45,196 nt of DNA from a virus, in IMG/VR virus record IMGVR_UViG_3300048554_000805, positions 1 through 45,196 of that record; one strand, written 5' to 3'. The position numbers and the translations under genes are program-made. Of this stretch, positions 853 to 45,196 are shown piece by piece (position 1 is the stretch's first letter; each line of letters begins with the position of its first letter). The notes beneath the pieces are model-generated. The model was not told where the DNA came from. It did no database searches and saw only the letters and a list, made by a program, of their open reading frames with translations.

Positions 853-870
853 TTTAACACTATGTTTAAA
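853..870. promoter_or_regulatory. 17-bp dispersed palindrome, capsid leader copy 1
   Basis: Reads TTTAACA-CTA-TGTTTAAA, one inserted T relative to the consensus TTTAACA-N3-TGTTAAA found at about eighteen places in this genome. Confidence 0.55.
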
Positions 871-19686: not shown

Positions 19687-19703
19687 TTTAACACCACATT
19701 AAA
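19687..19703. promoter_or_regulatory. Dispersed palindrome before the lysis cassette
   Basis: Reads TTTAACA-CCA-CATTAAA, followed by the ribosome site AGAGG for ATG 19718. A further copy, CTTAACA-CCA-CGTTAAC, lies inside the gene at 19985-20001. Confidence 0.55.
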
Positions 19704-21953: not shown

Positions 21954-22005
21954 CGCTTGTTTTGGGAACAAGAGGTCGCTGGTTCGAACCCAGTCACCCC
22001 GACCA
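21954..22005 (+). other. attP: attP core: 3' half of a tRNA-Pro (TGG) gene
   Basis: From 21956 the sequence folds as the 3' part of a tRNA: anticodon stem CTTGT / ACAAG with loop TTTGGGA (anticodon TGG, proline), variable loop AGGTC, T arm GCTGG-TTCGAAC-CCAGT, acceptor strand CACCCCG, discriminator A and encoded CCA. No 5' half precedes it, so it is not a functional tRNA gene. Integration here would rebuild the host tRNA-Pro gene. It lies beside the integrase. Confidence 0.9.
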
Positions 22006-23213: not shown

Positions 23214-23530
23214 TAAACCCCGAAATTTTCTTTTTCTGCAAGGGTTGCATTTATTCTCATAGAAGCTAAAGGAACAGCCATTTTTTCAGACTTCAAATCC
23301 TTTAAATAGTCTTCAAGCCAAGATATCACCACTTCATCAGTTACCTGAGAATTAGCGAAATGCTCCGCTAGGGCTCTTGATAAATCAGCGATTCTTTCTG
23401 TGCTTAATTCTCTCTGTGATTTTCCTAGTAAGCCCTCATCTAAGGCTTTACTGTCAATTCCTAGCTGTTGACATAAATTATCACGCCTCTTTTTCAGCCC
23501 GTTCGCTATATCGTTTTCTTCTGCTTTCAT
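23213..23530 (-). CDS. Unknown protein coupled to the integrase
   Basis: A 105-residue mostly helical protein with a good ribosome site (AAGGAAGGGC before ATG 23530). Its first 50 bp overlap the end of the repressor gene and its stop overlaps the integrase start. The mid-part LSRALAEHFANSQVTDEVVISWLEDYL looks like a small helical domain. Position suggests an excisionase-like or lysogeny-associated role, but no winged-helix excisionase pattern is visible. Confidence 0.6.
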   Translation of the reverse strand: MKAEENDIANGLKKRRDNLCQQLGIDSKALDEGLLGKSQRELSTERIADLSRALAEHFANSQVTDEVVISWLEDYLKDLKSEKMAVPLASMRINATLAEKENFGV

Positions 23531-23849
23531 CTTGCCCTTCCTTTAAGACGACCAATCTTTCCAAGATTTGTACTTGCTCCCTAAGTGATTGGATTTCTTC
23601 CTGCTGATCCTTGAAAACAGCTTTCTGTGACCCTGCACCATAAAGAAGCCAAGTTATATTATATCCTAATTTTGCTAGTCCATTTAATACTGATTTGGGT
23701 AAATCTCTCTCAGGGTTGTTAGGGTTTTGGAAATTTCCTAAAACTTGTGGGGATACTCCTAAAGCTTGGCAAAATTCCGTCTTGGATCTGTAAGGAGATT
23801 CTTCAATAATTTGATTGAGTCTGTCATTTACTTTTACTTTATTATACAT
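23481..23849 (-). CDS. CI-type repressor without peptidase domain
   Basis: A 122-residue protein. Residues 8-68 match the phage CI helix-turn-helix family: SKTEFCQALGVSPQVLGNF as the helix-turn-helix, then the characteristic LAKLGYNITWLLYG. Instead of an S24 LexA-like peptidase domain the rest is a heptad-rich coiled coil (EEIQSLREQVQILERLVVL) and a basic tail. It is therefore not self-cleaving and must be inactivated by another route. It is the first gene of the lysogeny block with integrase and lies opposite the exonuclease operon. It is a candidate binder of the 17-bp palindromes. Confidence 0.8.
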   Translation of the reverse strand: MYNKVKVNDRLNQIIEESPYRSKTEFCQALGVSPQVLGNFQNPNNPERDLPKSVLNGLAKLGYNITWLLYGAGSQKAVFKDQQEEIQSLREQVQILERLVVLKEGQDESRRKRYSERAEKEA

Positions 23850-24207: not shown

Positions 24208-24236
24208 TTGATCTTTAACATAGAGTTAAATATAAT
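24208..24236 (+). promoter_or_regulatory. Early promoter with operator in the spacer
   Basis: -35 TTGATC (24208-24213), then the 17-bp palindrome TTTAACA-TAG-AGTTAAA (24214-24230) filling the spacer exactly, then -10 TATAAT (24231-24236). A protein bound to the palindrome would block RNA polymerase. It should drive the exonuclease-ERF-replication operon starting at 24339. Confidence 0.7.
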
Positions 24237-24338: not shown

Positions 24339-25211
24339 ATGTTAACAAGACCCGACCACAAAAGTTATATAGGCGGCAGTGATGCCGCAGCATTGATGGG
24401 GCAGGGATACAAAACACCCCTTCAAGTTTTTAATGAAAAGATTGGGAGGAAAGAGCCCGAAGATTTAAGTGAAAATATAGCTGTTCAGCTTGGCAGTTAT
24501 TTAGAACCATTTGTTTTAAATGAGGCAACAAAAATACTAGGGAATCCTATTATTCCTTCTAACTTTAAACGCCATGTTAAATATAAGTTTATCGGGGGGC
24601 ATGTTGATGGCCTAATTAATTGGAATCCCCCCGCAATTGTTGAAACCAAAACGGGAATGTCTAGGAATTACAGACTTGGACTTCCCCCCTATATAGAGTG
24701 GCAGGTTAGGCACTACATGATGATTTTTGGGAGCCCTGTCTGCTATGTGGTGGCCCTGCTCTTAGATCAGAGAAAGACAGTCAGATTTGACATTGAGCGA
24801 GACTTAGAAATTGAGGAGAGAATGATTGAAACCTATTTAGACTTTTGGCAGAGAGTTGAAGAAGAAAGACCCCCTACGCCTTCACAGCCTGTTGATGTGG
24901 ATTTAATCCAATTACAGGGGGCTCAGGAAGCAACTGATGAGGAACTAGACATCTGTCTAGACCTCAGAGACATAAAAATCCAATTGGCTGAAATAAACAG
25001 CAGAAAGGAGGAGAAGGAGAATCAATTAAAAATGGCTTTACTCAAAAGAGGCTCTGAATCTCTCACTTTGTCCAATGATGGTTCGCCTTTGGTGAAGTGG
25101 GGGGAGCAGCAAAGAACAACCCTAAATCAGAAGGAGTTAAAAAAAGCACATCCCGAAATTTGTGACCTTTTCCAAGTCACAAAGACATCTAGAGTTTTTC
25201 AAGTATATTGA
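24339..25211 (+). CDS. YqaJ/lambda-type exonuclease
   Basis: A 290-residue 5'-3' double-strand exonuclease of the YqaJ viral recombinase family, partner of the annealing protein encoded next. The N-terminal IGGSDAAALMG, the QLGSYLEPFVLNEA segment, the metal-binding GGHVDGLI (Asp) and AIVETKTG (Glu-x-Lys), and WQVRHYMMIFG are all family motifs of the PD-(D/E)xK core. Residues 200-240 form a coiled-coil linker. Start ATG 24339 has AAAGGT upstream. First gene of the early operon. Confidence 0.92.
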   Translation: MLTRPDHKSYIGGSDAAALMGQGYKTPLQVFNEKIGRKEPEDLSENIAVQLGSYLEPFVLNEATKILGNPIIPSNFKRHVKYKFIGGHVDGLINWNPPAIVETKTGMSRNYRLGLPPYIEWQVRHYMMIFGSPVCYVVALLLDQRKTVRFDIERDLEIEERMIETYLDFWQRVEEERPPTPSQPVDVDLIQLQGAQEATDEELDICLDLRDIKIQLAEINSRKEEKENQLKMALLKRGSESLTLSNDGSPLVKWGEQQRTTLNQKELKKAHPEICDLFQVTKTSRVFQVY

Positions 25212-25943: not shown

Positions 25944-25960
25944 TTTAACATCATTTTAAA
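25944..25960. promoter_or_regulatory. Dispersed palindrome before the replication gene
   Basis: Reads TTTAACA-TCA-TTTTAAA, in the 40-bp gap before ATG 25980, upstream of ribosome site AGAGG. Confidence 0.5.
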
Positions 25961-27372: not shown

Positions 27373-27389
27373 TTTAACGCTGTGTTGAT
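27373..27389. promoter_or_regulatory. Dispersed palindrome before the VRR-NUC gene
   Basis: Reads TTTAACG-CTG-TGTTGAT in the 67-bp gap before ATG 27410, followed by TATAAG at 27393-27398. Confidence 0.5.
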
Positions 27390-28968: not shown

Positions 28969-29098
28969 TAATTTTTATGGGGGATTGATTGGATAAACCT
29001 CTATCCACAGAGAGAAAAAATCGGCTCATCTCTGTAAGAATCAAGTAAGTGATATGGGTAAAAAAGACGCTATACCCTAAACTCCCCCATAGAAATTA
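28969..29098 (+). ncRNA. Candidate structured RNA with 16-bp closing stem
   Basis: P1 pairs 28969-28984 with 29083-29098 over 16 bp, with one G-U wobble at 28975/29092. That wobble becomes an A-C mismatch on the other strand, favouring a plus-strand RNA. Inside, P2 TTGATT (28985-28990) pairs with AATCAA (29039-29044) and encloses two hairpins: GGATA/TATCC (28991-29006) and ACAGAGA/TCTCTGT (29007-29035). P3 GGGTA/TACCC (29056-29077) follows. All pairings nest. No known class recognised. It could be a 3' element of the zinc-protein mRNA or an independent RNA. Confidence 0.55.
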
Positions 29099-29105
29099 AA
29101 TTATT

Positions 29106-29122
29106 TTTAATAAGGCGTTAAA
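29106..29122. promoter_or_regulatory. Dispersed palindrome upstream of the 29131 promoter
   Basis: Reads TTTAATA-AGG-CGTTAAA, eight bases before the -35 element. Confidence 0.5.
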
Positions 29123-29130
29123 AAAAAGTG

Positions 29131-29160
29131 TTGACATTAAATCTCATGTTAACATATTAT
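29131..29160 (+). promoter_or_regulatory. Promoter with operator-like spacer
   Basis: -35 TTGACA (29131-29136), 18-bp spacer, -10 TATTAT (29155-29160). The spacer begins, directly after the -35 box, with TTAAATC-TCA-TGTTAAC, whose right half is a perfect dispersed-palindrome half. Start of transcription near 29167 gives a 46-nt leader for the gene at 29213. Confidence 0.7.
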
Positions 29161-29212
29161 AGGTTCACACGCTGAGTGAGTCAGCAAAAACAAACCCCAA
29201 CGAGGAAACAAA

Positions 29213-29389
29213 ATGAGAACGACAAAAGACATGAACACACAAGCAGACATTGCACTTCAGATCATGAATCACACAAAGAGCGGGCTTTCTTCAACAGAAG
29301 CTTGGGAGGCGATCTTTGGAGAAGGGAGTCAGGAGTTGATGAAATCTTGGGACATGAAAAAAGTTTGCAAGAAATTCAGAAGCCTCTGA
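29213..29389 (+). CDS. 58-residue protein under the 29131 promoter
   Basis: ATG 29213 has the ribosome site GAGGAA at 29203. The product reads MNTQADIALQIMNHTKSG then STEAWEAIFGEGSQELMKSWDMKK and ends with a basic FRSL. It is predicted as three helices, a plausible small DNA-binding or antirepressor fold, though no motif is certain. This frame is preferred to the overlapping 74-residue frame at 29176, whose composition is unlike protein. It is followed directly by a terminator, so the transcript is short and abundant-looking. Confidence 0.65.
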   Translation: MRTTKDMNTQADIALQIMNHTKSGLSSTEAWEAIFGEGSQELMKSWDMKKVCKKFRSL

Positions 29390-29399
29390 GGGGTGAATA

Positions 29400-29428
29400 A
29401 GAGGCATCAAGTTGGTGTCTCTTTTTAA
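29400..29428 (+). terminator. Rho-independent terminator
   Basis: AGAGGCATCA, loop AGT, TGGTGTCTCT, then TTTTTAATT. Ten-bp stem including two G-U pairs. It closes the 29213 transcription unit. Confidence 0.75.
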
Positions 29429-29429
29429 T

Positions 29430-29690
29430 TCCTTAGATACCCCAAGCCACTTCCCTCAGGGATTTACGGGGTGACAATTGAGACTCAGCACTGACCTGAA
29501 AAGGTAAGTAGAGAACGAAGACTTGAACGAGTGCTGTTTAGAAAGACTTCCTCACTGAGAAAATCAGGGGGTAGCGATAAAAAGAAGTGTCATGGATGAT
29601 ATTAGCTTTTTTGCATTGCGTAAGTCACAGCCGAATGGCTGTAGAGATCAACTCAATAAAGAGTTTGTCTCCTAAGCCATTTAACTTTTT
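29430..29690 (+). ncRNA. Candidate structured non-coding region
   Basis: A 313-bp gap between genes (29390-29702). Beyond the terminator it has ACCCC/GGGGT (29439-29472) enclosing TCCC/GGGA; CAGCACT (29486-29492) pairing with AGTGCTG (29530-29536) and enclosing ACCT-GAAA-AGGT, a GNRA tetraloop hairpin; ACAGCC-GAAT-GGCTGT (29627-29642); and AACTC/GAGTT inside GAGA/TCTC (29644-29671). A 27-residue frame from ATG 29592 overlaps the last two hairpins and is an alternative explanation. Class unknown. Confidence 0.4.
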
Positions 29691-29702
29691 GAGGTATTTA
29701 AA

Positions 29703-31146: not shown

Positions 31147-31171
31147 GGGGGGCTTTGCTCCCCTTTATTTT
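31147..31171 (+). terminator. Rho-independent terminator
   Basis: GGGGGGC-TTT-GCTCCCC (one G-U pair) followed by TTTATTTT. Eight bases after the H1-like gene. A sister hairpin with loop TCT occurs at 32528. Confidence 0.75.
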
Positions 31172-31185
31172 AACAAGGAGTTTAA
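31169..31185. promoter_or_regulatory. Dispersed palindrome containing a ribosome site
   Basis: Reads TTTAACA-AGG-AGTTTAA; the AAGGAG within it is the ribosome site for ATG 31188. Confidence 0.55.
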
Positions 31186-32803: not shown

Positions 32804-32861
32804 GTAAGCAAAACTATTTACCGGTAAGCAAAACTATTTACCGGTAAGTAAAACTATTTAC
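32804..32861 (+). repeat. Three tandem 20-bp iterons
   Basis: GTAAGCAAAACTATTTAC at 32804, the same at 32824, and GTAAGTAAAACTATTTAC at 32844, each followed by CG or TG, so the period is exactly 20 bp. Each unit is itself an imperfect inverted repeat (CGGTAA...TTACCG around the middle copy). The block is non-coding and lies just before the second leader hairpin. Confidence 0.85.
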
Positions 32862-35811: not shown

Positions 35812-36078
35812 ATGAGCCTAGATGTAAATAGAGATAAGTTTAAAAAAACTGTCAGCAAGACAATCAAAGCCTTGGAGGAGATTCGTAACACTTCATGGCA
35901 GGATTGGGCAGACCCTAAAAGTGTTAAACTCAACAGAGAGGAGGATTTTGAAATAACTAAATCAAAGCAAGCACTAAACAGAATTTTGGATGCTATTCAT
36001 GAGGCTGAGACTAACCAATTAAAGTTGTCTTTAGCTATACCAACAGAACCTAAATTACTAAAGGAAGAAAATGAGTAA
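35812..36078 (+). CDS. Unknown early protein (88 residues)
   Basis: Strong ribosome site GAGGAGA before ATG 35812. Helical and charged, with KFKKTVSKTIKALEEIRN and KSKQALNRILDAIHEAETNQ. Overlaps the RHH gene by 8 bp, so the two are probably co-translated. Not recognised. Confidence 0.6.
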   Translation: MSLDVNRDKFKKTVSKTIKALEEIRNTSWQDWADPKSVKLNREEDFEITKSKQALNRILDAIHEAETNQLKLSLAIPTEPKLLKEENE

Positions 36079-36316
36079 AAAAAGAGGAAGACCAACTAAA
36101 GGTGATTCTCCTTTAAAAGTTCGGATGGGCTTCCGCATTCCTGATGAGATGCTAGAAGAAGTTGAAGCTGTTTGTAAGAAAAAGGGGATGAGGAAAACAG
36201 ATTTTATTATTTTATCAATTAGGAGTCAGTTACTAAATCAAAGATTGAAAGAATATCATGATAAAAAAGATTTGGAGGAAGTGCCTTCATCCTTTGGGCG
36301 AATTGTTAATTTTTAG
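36071..36316 (+). CDS. Ribbon-helix-helix DNA-binding protein (CopG-like)
   Basis: An 81-residue protein. After a basic AT-hook-like RGRPTKGD, residues 18-55 give a ribbon-helix-helix: strand VRMGFRI, helix PDEMLEEVEAVCKKKG, helix RKTDFIILSIRSQL. Such proteins bind as dimers to palindromic operators. It is one of three candidate regulators in this genome and lies 18 bp upstream of a perfect-type palindrome copy. Confidence 0.75.
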   Translation: MSKKRGRPTKGDSPLKVRMGFRIPDEMLEEVEAVCKKKGMRKTDFIILSIRSQLLNQRLKEYHDKKDLEEVPSSFGRIVNF

Positions 36317-36334: not shown

Positions 36335-36351
36335 TTTAACATGGAGTTAAA
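36335..36351. promoter_or_regulatory. Dispersed palindrome after the RHH gene
   Basis: Reads TTTAACA-TGG-AGTTAAA; GGAG inside it is the ribosome site for ATG 36358. Confidence 0.6.
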
Positions 36352-37099: not shown

Positions 37100-37351
37100 A
37101 TGAGCAAAAAACTCTATTGGTCTGAGCTTGAGAAGGTCTGTCTGAAGCAAGGCTTTGTGAAAGAGGACTTTATTGGACTTGTGAAGGATATTTCCCCAAG
37201 TTCTGAACAGTTGGCTTCTATGATCAGAGGGATAAGGGACAGGGATGTTTTTTCAGCCCTCCTAGAGTCCCAAAAGGATAACTTTAACCCTGAGCATAGG
37301 GCATTGATAAAAGAAAGGAGAGAAGCCCAAAATATAGCCCCTGCTAGTTAA
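37100..37351 (+). CDS. Unknown protein, last early gene (83 residues)
   Basis: GAGGTG precedes ATG 37100. Helical: YWSELEKVCLKQGFVKEDFIGLV and SEQLASMIRGIRDRDVFSALL. Its stop overlaps the stop of the opposing RHH regulator by four bases, ending the early operon. Not recognised. Confidence 0.55.
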   Translation: MSKKLYWSELEKVCLKQGFVKEDFIGLVKDISPSSEQLASMIRGIRDRDVFSALLESQKDNFNPEHRALIKERREAQNIAPAS

Positions 37352-37815
37352 GCCGCCTTTTTTTTGCGGGTAATCATATCTTGAATTACTCGCAAATCCT
37401 CCTCAGGAAGCCCCTTTCTCAACTCCTCAATTATTTCCTCTACAATCAAAGAGTGTGAGCAGTTTCTCGCCTGTGCAACCAATCCCAAGTGTCTATAAAT
37501 TTCTAGCTCAGGCTGAAAATGGATAGTGACAGGTTTTGATTTCTTGGAAGTCTCTTTAATCAATTCTCCTGTTTTGTTCACTTCTAACTTAGCAATCAGC
37601 CTTGAAAGTAAATTGATTCTGCTTTCAGCAAAAAGAAAACAATAAGTGTCCAAAAACTCTGCATGGTCTTGAGTTAAAGTTATTGTTGTTCTCATCTTTC
37701 CATCTTTGCCCCGATTTGCCACTCTGTTTAAAATAACAGATAACTCATCTTCAGCTTTCTCCCCGAAAATTTCTCTCCATCTATCCCAAATTTTGTCTTC
37801 CACAATAATTTCCAT
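37348..37815 (-). CDS. Tandem ribbon-helix-helix regulator
   Basis: A 155-residue protein, the only minus-strand gene outside the lysogeny block. It carries two ribbon-helix-helix units: residues about 41-80 (RTTITLTQDHAEFLDTYCFL then ESRINLLSRLIAKL) and about 95-137 (KPVTIHFQPELEIYRHLGLV then NCSHSLIVEEIIEEL). Two units in one chain can form a complete RHH fold or bridge operators. Its promoter region contains two copies of the dispersed palindrome (37867, 37931), suggesting autoregulation and control of the divergent late operon. Confidence 0.75.
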   Translation of the reverse strand: MEIIVEDKIWDRWREIFGEKAEDELSVILNRVANRGKDGKMRTTITLTQDHAEFLDTYCFLFAESRINLLSRLIAKLEVNKTGELIKETSKKSKPVTIHFQPELEIYRHLGLVAQARNCSHSLIVEEIIEELRKGLPEEDLRVIQDMITRKKKAA

Positions 37816-37866: not shown

Positions 37867-37883
37867 TTTAACATGAGGTTAAA
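37867..37883. promoter_or_regulatory. Dispersed palindrome upstream of the tandem RHH gene
   Basis: Reads TTTAACA-TGA-GGTTAAA, 52 bp before the RHH start. Confidence 0.65.
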
Positions 37884-37924
37884 ATACCGCAAGCATTATT
37901 CAAGGCTATCAATGCAAAGTTGCT

Positions 37925-37953
37925 TGACATTTAACACTATGTTAACGAATTTT
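37925..37953 (+). promoter_or_regulatory. -35 box followed by dispersed palindrome, late/packaging promoter candidate
   Basis: TTGACA (37925-37930) is followed directly by TTTAACA-CTA-TGTTAAC (37931-37947), the same register as at 24208 and 29131. A good -10 box is lacking (GAATTT at 37948-37953), so the promoter may need an activator. It faces the operon starting at 38015. Confidence 0.55.
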
Positions 37954-38555: not shown

Positions 38556-38572
38556 TTTAACACCATATGAAA
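38556..38572. promoter_or_regulatory. Dispersed palindrome overlapping the ParB-like start
   Basis: Reads TTTAACA-CCA-TATGAAA with ATG 38567 inside the right half. As at 11710, no Shine-Dalgarno sequence is visible. Confidence 0.5.
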
Positions 38573-39217
38573 AAAGAAGACTTGAAAATTCACAATTGGG
38601 ATATTGAACATATTTACCCTAACCCTTGGAATCCTAACATGACTTCCAAAAGGGTAGATGAAGCTATAAGGGAATCAATTGGAATTTATGGGATGGTTGA
38701 CCCTATCACTTGCCGCAGACATCCCGAAATTGATGGGGCTCTGCAAGTTATTGATGGGGAACATAGATTGGAGGCTTGCAAGGAAATGGGGCTTTCAACA
38801 GTCCCTGTTATTGTTCTTGATGTTAATGATGCCAATGCGAAAAAGCTCACTATTATTGCCAATGAGACAAGGGGGAGAGCAGAAAAGCAAAGCCTAGCTC
38901 AATTGGTGGCTGAAATTGCTGAAGAGCTTGATGTTGACACGTTTAGGCTAGGGCTTCCCTATTATGCTGATGAGCTTGAGAACATGCTAGGGGATGGAGA
39001 TTCAGCAGGAGATGTTGACCCCTCCAAAGAATGGGAGGGAATGCCTGAGTTCAATAATGAGAATGTGGAGAGTTGGAAACAGATTATAGTTCATTTTGAA
39101 TGCGAAAATGATTATTTAGAGTTTCAAAAGCTGATTAAACAAGAGTTGACTGAAAAAACTAAATTTATTTATTTCCCTAAAAAGGAGAGTTTAGACCTTA
39201 TCAATTATGAATCCTAG
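38567..39217 (+). CDS. ParB/sulfiredoxin-like nuclease domain protein
   Basis: A 216-residue protein. The N-terminal 100 residues are a ParB/Srx domain: YPNPWNPN, IGIYGMVDPITCRRH, QVIDGEHRLEACKEMG, VPVIVLDVNDANAKKL. The GEHR core binds nucleotide in the superfamily, which includes DNA-partition CTPases and nucleases. The C-terminal part is acidic and not recognised. No ParA partner is present, so partition is unlikely. Overlaps the glycosyltransferase start by 11 bp, indicating a functional pair. Confidence 0.85.
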   Translation: MKKEDLKIHNWDIEHIYPNPWNPNMTSKRVDEAIRESIGIYGMVDPITCRRHPEIDGALQVIDGEHRLEACKEMGLSTVPVIVLDVNDANAKKLTIIANETRGRAEKQSLAQLVAEIAEELDVDTFRLGLPYYADELENMLGDGDSAGDVDPSKEWEGMPEFNNENVESWKQIIVHFECENDYLEFQKLIKQELTEKTKFIYFPKKESLDLINYES

Positions 39218-40676: not shown

Positions 40677-41966
40677 GTGCCTCAGGATATTCAGCTTTTA
40701 TCTCATCAGTATAAGGTCTTAGCCTCTAGGAAGAGGGAGATTTTTCTAGGTGGTGGGGTTGGGGCAGGTAAAACAATGATTGGCTCATTGTGGGCGATTC
40801 TGAAAGCTAGAAGAACCCCTAAGGATGTATATGGGCTAGTAGTTAGTAATACCTACCCTCAACTGTATGACACAACAATTAGGGCTCTTTATGAAATAGC
40901 AGATAAAGCAGGGGTAAAAATGTTACCTGCTCAAATACCAAGAGGGAGAGGCCCAACAGATTTATTAGTACAGACAGCCACAGGACAAACTAGAATTTTA
41001 ATTAGATCATTAGAACATTATGAAAGGCTTTCGGGGTTAGAAGTTGGTTGGTTTTGGGCTGATGAAGTTTGGCAAACAAGAAAGGAAGCAATTGATGTTT
41101 TAAATGCCCGTTTGAGAGATAAAAGAATGGGCAGATTACAGAGCCTTTACACTTCAACTTTAGATGACCCCTCAACTTGGATGTATCAGAGATTTGTTGA
41201 GCAGGTTAATCCTAAAAGAACAGACGTTTTTTATGCCAAAACAGCAGACAACCCAAACCTCCCGAAAGATTATATTGAAACCCTCAAGTCCACTTACTCA
41301 GAAAGCATGTATAGGCGCATGGTTCTTTCTGAGTGGGTTGCCCTTGATCAGAATAGGATTTACACCTCATTCGCCCGTGAAAATAATGTATCAACAGAAG
41401 TTCATTATGAAGAAGCCCTCCCTCTCCTTTGGAGTCATGATTTTAATATTGGGGTGGGGAAGCCCATGTCTTCCTGTGTTTTACAGTACCATCCAAAGAC
41501 TGATGAATATCATGTTATTGATGAGATCATACTTGATAAATCAGATACCCATGATGCAGTCACAGAATTTCTTTCCCGTTACCCCTCCTCAGGGGTGGTA
41601 ATCTATGGCGATGCAAGTGGACAAGCTAGAGACACAAGAAGCAGATTAACAGACTTTGAAATACTAAGAAGAGCAGGATTCACAGAGCAAAAAGTACCAA
41701 GATCAAACCCTCCTGTTAGAGAAAGACACAATTTAATTAACGCTCTGTTAAAATCAGCAAATGGGAAGGTTAGAATAAAGATTAGTCCAAAATGCAGAAC
41801 CTTAATAAAAGGGTTGGATACTGTCCATTTAAAGAAGGGGGCTAACTATGTGGAAGATGACAGCCAAAGGGAACAGCATGTAACGACAGCCTTGGGTTAT
41901 TGCCTGTTTGAAGAGCTAGGAAGTCGCAAGGGTCAAATGAGTCAAATCAGAGTGAAAGGGATTTAA
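40677..41966 (+). CDS. terL: Terminase large subunit
   Basis: A 429-residue packaging motor starting at GTG. ATPase: Walker A GGGVGAGKT near residue 25, Walker B VGWFWADE near 123. Nuclease with RNase H-like Asp residues in SHDFNIG, VIYGDASG and the final HVTTALGY region. Full length for the family. It cuts and pumps DNA into the procapsid. Confidence 0.95.
   Translation: MPQDIQLLSHQYKVLASRKREIFLGGGVGAGKTMIGSLWAILKARRTPKDVYGLVVSNTYPQLYDTTIRALYEIADKAGVKMLPAQIPRGRGPTDLLVQTATGQTRILIRSLEHYERLSGLEVGWFWADEVWQTRKEAIDVLNARLRDKRMGRLQSLYTSTLDDPSTWMYQRFVEQVNPKRTDVFYAKTADNPNLPKDYIETLKSTYSESMYRRMVLSEWVALDQNRIYTSFARENNVSTEVHYEEALPLLWSHDFNIGVGKPMSSCVLQYHPKTDEYHVIDEIILDKSDTHDAVTEFLSRYPSSGVVIYGDASGQARDTRSRLTDFEILRRAGFTEQKVPRSNPPVRERHNLINALLKSANGKVRIKISPKCRTLIKGLDTVHLKKGANYVEDDSQREQHVTTALGYCLFEELGSRKGQMSQIRVKGI
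41736..41752. promoter_or_regulatory. Palindrome-like sequence inside terminase
   Basis: Reads ATTAACG-CTC-TGTTAAA within the terL coding sequence. Same shape as the intergenic sites, but may be chance. Confidence 0.3.
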
Positions 41967-44622: not shown

Positions 44623-45196
44623 AAACTTATATTAATACTCTTGAAGAAGTAGATGAGCAATTACAAAGCCTTTACAAGCCTAAGGGAGATGGTTTTGCTT
44701 TAGATGTGGAGGGAGAGCAAGACCGCCAAGCTTTGAGGGAAAAAGTAAAAGAATTTAGGGATAACAACACAAGACTGCAGGAGCAACTTGAGCAGATGCA
44801 GGGGCGCATTTCTTTAGTTGAGGATTTAGACCCAACAGATTTGAAAGCAGCAATTGAAGCTCATAAGCAGGTTAAAGAAAAAGAAATGATTCCTGCGACT
44901 GAGATGGACAAGCTGATGAATCAGAAGATTCAAGCAGAGCGCAAAAAATATGAATCTGAGCTTGAAGAATCCAAGACTATAGCCCTAAGGCTACAGGGAG
45001 AAATGAACAGAATGCACATTGAAAAGACCATAACAGAAGGTCTAAATAAAGTGGGTCAGCTTCAAAAGGGGGCTTTATCTGATGTGCTGAGAAGAGCCCA
45101 AAATGAAATAGATGTGAAAGAGGAAAGGCTAATTGATCGCTCAACAGGTCTAAGCCTTGATCCTGTGGATTGGGCAAATGAGTTATTAAAGAACAG
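44613..45196 (+). CDS. Capsid scaffold protein, 5' part (continues at base 1)
   Basis: Starts ATG 44613 with AAAGGGAAAG upstream. The first 150 residues are strongly coiled-coil and Glu/Lys/Gln-rich (EFRDNNTRLQEQLEQMQG, LDPTDLKAAIEAHKQVKEKE). The frame is open to the contig end and joins base 1-302, giving 252 residues in total. Phage scaffolds of the GP20 type contain the same LxxAxxAHKQVKEK-like segment. Confidence 0.8.
   Translation, partial: MALKTYINTLEEVDEQLQSLYKPKGDGFALDVEGEQDRQALREKVKEFRDNNTRLQEQLEQMQGRISLVEDLDPTDLKAAIEAHKQVKEKEMIPATEMDKLMNQKIQAERKKYESELEESKTIALRLQGEMNRMHIEKTITEGLNKVGQLQKGALSDVLRRAQNEIDVKEERLIDRSTGLSLDPVDWANELLKN
45070..45196. repeat. 127-bp terminal overlap identical to bases 1-127
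   Basis: Bases 45070-45196 equal bases 1-127 throughout and keep one reading frame across the join. This is the signature of a circular or circularly permuted genome of 45,069 bp; 127 is also a common assembler k-mer length, so it is not evidence for physical terminal repeats. Confidence 0.95.

Follow-up and report, generated by a model that had tools for sequence, protein, structure and literature searches.

The window, meaning the whole stretch of 45,196 nucleotides that was analysed, encodes a terminase, portal, major head protein, tape measure, endolysin, Erf-like annealing protein, YqaJ-like nuclease, DnaD-like replication protein, SSB, and integrase. Its ends (1-127 and 45070-45196) are an identical 127 bp repeat, which indicates a closed circular genome of 45,069 bp; a repeat of 127 bp is also compatible with an assembler k-mer overlap. 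Adjoining the integrase, at 21969-22004, is a tRNA 3' end (GAGGTCGCTGGTTCGAACCCAGTCACCCCGACCA) that is likely to be the attP core. The gene set, the integrase, and the attP-like sequence together point to a temperate tailed phage. One near relative was found, G001 (IMGVR_UViG_2778261618_000001, contig NZFK01000029.1), which is collinear with the window once rotated and 75% identical to it. In binning, G001 was assigned to the MAG 'Rickettsiales bacterium isolate MED721', and the lineage is probably one of marine phages. The MAG was considered as a host, but its match to the tRNA end falls where G001's own attP is expected and is thus uninformative; the match was absent from 26 other genomes of the MAG's class.

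The predicted early promoter and the palindrome within it are arranged as follows.

24208-24213, plus strand: -35 box TTGATC of the predicted early promoter (TTGATT in G001)
24214-24230, plus strand: putative operator TTTAACATAGAGTTAAA inside the promoter spacer (orthologue in G001, TTTAACAAGTTGTTAAC)
24231-24236, plus strand: -10 box TATAAT of the predicted early promoter (TATTAT in G001)

As the preliminary description had stated, the palindrome (two arms of 6 bases and a spacer of 5) abuts both boxes with no extra base. In a weight-matrix scan, 24208-24236 is the top local promoter-like match at 11.9 bits (random 99th percentile, 8.5). G001 retains the promoter as TTGATT-17-TATTAT (10.5 bits), with the operator displaced by one base relative to it; the exact fill is therefore not conserved, whereas the overlap of operator and promoter is. 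G001 preserves both the promoter and the arms of the operator but not the intergenic DNA around them, which lends good support to a putative DNA operator at the early promoter. As the site precedes the predicted start of the transcript, it would act as DNA.

The palindrome at 24214 has many counterparts. Approximately 17 copies of a 17-mer with the consensus TTTAACAnnnTGTTAAA are present in the genome, each a version of the 17 bp near-palindrome TTTAAC-N5-GTTAAA. The window holds five exact copies of this pattern and ten with one mismatch, where shuffled sequence yields 0 and 0.43, respectively. An exact-pattern scan for the motif elsewhere returned three contigs with only one or two copies each, which are therefore regarded as chance matches. 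Apart from the copies beside -35-like boxes and one close neighbour, which are given below, the sites are these (handles beginning with L denote further relatives).

853-869, plus strand: site TTTAACACTATGTTTAA, upstream of the major head protein gene; orthologues in L005, L007, L019
967-983, plus strand: site TTTAACAAGATGTTAAA, 14 bases before the major head protein ATG; orthologues in L005, L007, L019
5245-5261, plus strand: site TTTAACAAGGAATTAAA, 5 bases before ATG 5267, its spacer carrying ribosome-binding AAGGA; orthologue in L019
11710-11726, plus strand: site TTTAACAGTGTGTTAAA, abutting ATG 11726, 3' of the tape measure gene; kept in G001
19687-19703, plus strand: site TTTAACACCACATTAAA, ahead of lysis-region genes; exact TTTAACAAGGAGTTAAA in G001
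25944-25960, plus strand: site TTTAACATCATTTTAAA, ahead of the DnaD-like replication gene; kept in G001
27373-27389, plus strand: site TTTAACGCTGTGTTGAT, ahead of an endonuclease gene; TTTAACACTGTGTTGAA in G001
31169-31185, plus strand: site TTTAACAAGGAGTTTAA, with ribosome-binding AAGGAG inside, 2 bases before ATG 31188
36335-36351, plus strand: site TTTAACATGGAGTTAAA, 6 bases before ATG 36358; orthologue in L006
36567-36583, plus strand: site ATTAACAGGATGTTAAA, spanning a stop/start junction; exact copy in G001
37867-37883, plus strand: site TTTAACATGAGGTTAAA, between a divergent 155-aa gene and the right-hand operon; orthologue also in L006
38556-38572, plus strand: site TTTAACACCATATGAAA, overlapping the ATG of the ParB-like gene; orthologue in L006
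41962-41978, plus strand: weak copy TTTAACAGCATATGAAT, lying across the ATG of the portal gene; left arm retained in L003, L005, L006, L007, L008, and G001

Two strong motif matches, both reversed, also lie within coding sequence, at 24565-24581 (YqaJ-like gene) and 41736-41752 (terminase gene). Relatives retain both, the arms showing few synonymous changes, and the two are possible auxiliary operators.

Each conserved site has a G001 orthologue at the same position. Across 14 such pairs, positions 2-6, 13, 14, and 16 are identical in every pair and position 7 in 13, while the spacer and flanks are at the background level (about 9 of 14 identical). Near-invariant arms beside a spacer and flanks that drift at background rate are the footprint of a protein on DNA, and the copies are on this evidence putative protein-binding sites. 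Several sites also recur in fragments from additional relatives, namely those ahead of the major head protein gene, of 36358, and of the ParB-like gene, and the two at 37867 and 37930. In contrast, distant relatives recognised by head protein or terminase (L009, L010, L020-L024) have neither the site nor, where searched, the gene for the helix-turn-helix (HTH) protein described below.

Of the 15 sites with at most one mismatch, 12 are noncoding, although noncoding DNA makes up just 8.4% of the genome. The sites precede early, late, and lysis genes alike, and about ten of them lie within 20 bases of a start codon or overlap one; several intergenic gaps have no site. Ribosome-binding sequences (AAGGAG, AAGGA, TGGAG) occur within the spacers of several sites. 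The sites are also oriented. A occupies position 7 in 29 of 30 sites, but the mirror base, T at position 11, is present in just 15 of 30, and the plus orientation scores better at 11-12 of 15 sites in the window and 14 of 15 in G001; the sites are thus co-oriented with transcription, the reversed exceptions being one promoter copy (29137) and the two intragenic candidates. Such polarity is not expected of a simple dimer on a palindrome. The asymmetry of the right arm may result partly from ribosome-binding and start-codon constraints, but the right arm also diverges at 853 and 25944, which are free of them.

Two further copies follow a TTGACA box, and a third site lies close to one of them.

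29106-29122, plus strand: site TTTAATAAGGCGTTAAA, 31 bp (about 3 helical turns) upstream of the 29137 copy; identical in G001
29131-29160, plus strand: predicted promoter TTGACA-18-TATTAT with a degenerate inverted site (29137-29153) in its spacer; 13.0 bits in both phages
37924-37946, plus strand: TTGACA followed by site TTTAACACTATGTTAAC (37930-37946), -10 unclear; TTGACT directly ahead of the site in G001 and L006

The preliminary description had taken these, together with the early promoter, as three promoters with the site in the same register. On the -35 side this holds: TTGACA at 29131-29136 directly precedes TTAAATCTCATGTTAAC, and the other TTGACA (at 37924-37929, rather than starting at 37925) directly precedes TTTAACACTATGTTAAC. 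It does not hold beyond that, as the copies are of unequal quality, one is inverted, and the operator of the early promoter is shifted by one base in G001. Specifically, the copy at 29137-29153 is poor, with 3 mismatches in 12 and a motif score of 10.9 reversed against -0.3 forward, and its -10 box, TATTAT, is 18 rather than 17 bases away. For the 37930 copy, no good -10 box was found at 17-18 bases (best, AATTTT); the promoter score is 8.4 bits in the window and 9.6 in G001, near the 99% level of 8.5, with hexamers that differ between the two phages.

Overall, a scan with a sigma-70 matrix of E. coli type, which may not be that of the host, found just three of the approximately 17 sites (24214, 29137, and 37930) at which promoter-like sequence exceeds, in both phages, the 95-99% level of random positions. 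At the remaining 14 conserved copies, promoter scores equalled those of random positions in both phages. Therefore, the earlier proposal of an operator controlling initiation fits the early promoter, but initiation alone does not account for 14 copies that lack promoter-like sequence.

Three genes of the window are candidates for the protein that would bind the sites.

23481-23849, minus strand: 122-aa lambda-repressor-like HTH protein with a C-terminal coiled coil, the favoured candidate binder
37348-37815, minus strand: 155-aa protein, its gene divergent from sites 37867 and 37930, an alternative binder; to the eye, its sequence resembles two ribbon-helix-helix motifs
36071-36316, plus strand: 81-aa Arc/CopG-like protein, an alternative binder; phrog_876 transcriptional repressor, E 5e-8

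The HTH protein is, on balance, the probable binder. Its AlphaFold model (helices at 3-17, 23-30, 34-41, and 52-60) is consistent with a domain of the lambda-repressor type and, after it, a long helix that probably forms a coiled coil. Foldseek neighbours include 434 Cro, 434 repressor, SinR, and HigA (probability 0.9-1.0, E 0.08 or worse); PHROG matches are to transcriptional regulators or repressors and are weak, and a search of Pfam and NCBIfam families gave none above threshold. The start of the gene is 365 bases from the 24214 site, which counts against this assignment.

It is conceivable, though on the whole unlikely, that the 155-aa or the 81-aa protein binds the sites instead. Arc-type repressors, too, bind palindromic half-sites about 11 bp apart. 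The 155-aa gene is divergent from two of the sites, and the 81-aa protein has its match to a transcriptional repressor family. For the 155-aa protein, a family search gave no significant match and the structure model is unusable (pLDDT 40). A single-sequence scan of viral contigs returned no relatives of it; that scan also missed its homologue in G001, and is thus insensitive. However, it is the HTH gene that occupies the usual position of a repressor, with the integrase operon on one side and the early promoter on the other, and the HTH protein is better conserved in G001 than the 155-aa protein (82% against 64% identity), as fits an unchanged site.

Taken together, these observations are best explained, with somewhat better than even confidence, by a genome-wide operator family, to which the 24214 palindrome belongs, serving a single phage repressor that would prevent initiation at two or three promoters and halt elongation wherever else it is bound. 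We infer that the likely regulator, the CI-like HTH protein, would bind as a dimer at 24214-24230, cover the spacer, and exclude polymerase. Bound within 24208-24236, 29131-29160, and probably at 37924, it would fill the space between -35 and -10 and so block initiation, an ordinary step that is well supported. At sites without a promoter, by analogy with the stoperators of phage L5, the repressor may act as a roadblock to elongating RNA polymerase or may cover the start region of the next gene, such that read-through transcription in the lysogen would be halted gene by gene. Since 14 of the approximately 17 copies have no promoter and most of these lie 0-20 bases before, or over, start codons, a block to elongation reads better than initiation control alone.

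Rather improbable, by comparison, is the reading in which every site marks a promoter of its own, of a kind unlike E. coli sigma-70 promoters, and the regulator controls only initiation, as at most SPBRE sites of phage SPbeta. Three sites do lie within good promoters, and MrpR of phage SPbeta binds dispersed elements in promoter regions (PMC10516654). However, about ten sites end 0-20 bases from an ATG or overlap the ribosome-binding sequence or ATG, which leaves no space for a -10 box and a transcript start, and the other sites score as random positions for promoters in both phages.

It is very improbable that the sites act as RNA, either as small hairpins that regulate translation or as boxes for an RNA-binding protein. 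The inverted repeats do stand directly ahead of ATGs, the loop in some cases containing the ribosome-binding sequence, and the segments at 957 and 36557 fold better than shuffled sequence at about the 2-5% level. However, most of the eight sites that were folded do no better than shuffles, changes in the right arm are not compensated in the left, and the copies at 24214 and 29137 lie upstream of the predicted transcript start, the latter inverted. Some copies read ACAGGAUGU, as at CsrA/RsmA-like sites, but the GGA is missing from copies away from an ATG and is thus the ribosome-binding sequence. Least credible of all is a role in partition (as parS/sopC-like elements), replication, or packaging, with the ParB-like protein (38567-39217) as the binder: dispersed inverted repeats do accompany a ParB-like gene on this phage, but no ParA was seen, an integrase is present, the protein has ParB_N only and matches partition nucleases and methyltransferases, and placement at gene starts and promoters fits regulation better.

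The preferred reading of a single repressor can be extended, although only tentatively. One palindromic site and a dimeric CI-like repressor might perform three jobs, namely filling of promoter spacers, an oriented roadblock, and occlusion of translation starts, with the ribosome-binding sequence housed in the operator's free spacer (TTTAACAAGGAGTTAAA). If so, a single element of 17 bases would combine a gene start with its off-switch, in a group of phages that has no relation to the actinobacteriophages.

Several known phages carry comparable repeats. In Streptomyces phage phiC31, intergenic inverted repeats (CIRs) are distributed genome-wide and bound by the repressor; intergenic inverted repeats are shared with the phage studied here, while sequence, host, and repressor differ. 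The L5-clade (Cluster A) mycobacteriophages have 20-30 dispersed repressor sites, mostly in short gaps away from promoters with a few in early promoters, and predominantly co-oriented with transcription (PMC6550527, PMC9283540); reversal of an L5 stoperator abolishes its effect (PMC9283540). Similarly, the approximately 17 sites described here are dispersed, mostly intergenic, and co-oriented, with three linked to promoters. However, the L5 site is 13-14 bp without dyad symmetry and its repressor is a monomer with two DNA-binding domains, whereas a 17 bp near-palindrome suggests a dimer and the candidate is a 122-aa protein with an HTH and a coiled coil. Phage P1 has 22 C1 operators of 17 bp dispersed over a temperate genome (PMC8546580), but their consensus, ATTGCTCTAATAAATTT, is asymmetric where TTTAACAnnnTGTTAAA is palindromic, and the prophage is a plasmid. 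In SPbeta, one master repressor, MrpR, acts with an element (SPBRE) repeated in many intergenic regions (PMC10516654). MrpR is, however, derived from a tyrosine recombinase and has a 15 bp motif with sites in promoter regions, while most sites here are away from promoters. The T1-like lytic phages Stevie and TLS have oriented intergenic repeats whose role is not known (PMC4319613, PMC11447400). These are intergenic and co-oriented as here, although the Stevie and T1 repeats are asymmetric and the phages lytic; oriented arrays thus need not be repressor sites.

Dispersed operators are therefore already known, and what is new here is the palindromic site, the ribosome-binding sequence inside an operator, and their occurrence in an unrelated phage. 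Most known examples of silencing through scattered repressor sites come from actinobacteriophages, with P1 and SPbeta as partial parallels. If the preferred reading is correct, genome-wide blocking of elongation would have evolved more than once and would require neither an asymmetric site nor a two-domain monomeric repressor. A symmetric core with a stronger upstream half would also allow a direct test of the role of orientation in a roadblock formed by a dimer.

A further noncoding feature lies downstream of the copies at 29106 and 29137. Approximately 313 bases (29390-29702) are free of open reading frames and more than 93% identical to G001, against the genome average of 75%; the block of high identity extends over about 29090-29690. 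Folding of 29390-29702 gives -98.6 kcal/mol (z -4.4), far better than shuffles. An Rfam search of this segment gave no match, and its core has an exact match in no other viral contig. The segment probably specifies a structured RNA of a kind not yet described, transcribed from the operator-covered promoter at 29131. Additionally, a short tandem direct repeat with a period of about 20 bp (GTAAGCAAAACTATTTACCG) lies in a noncoding gap at 32805-32860.
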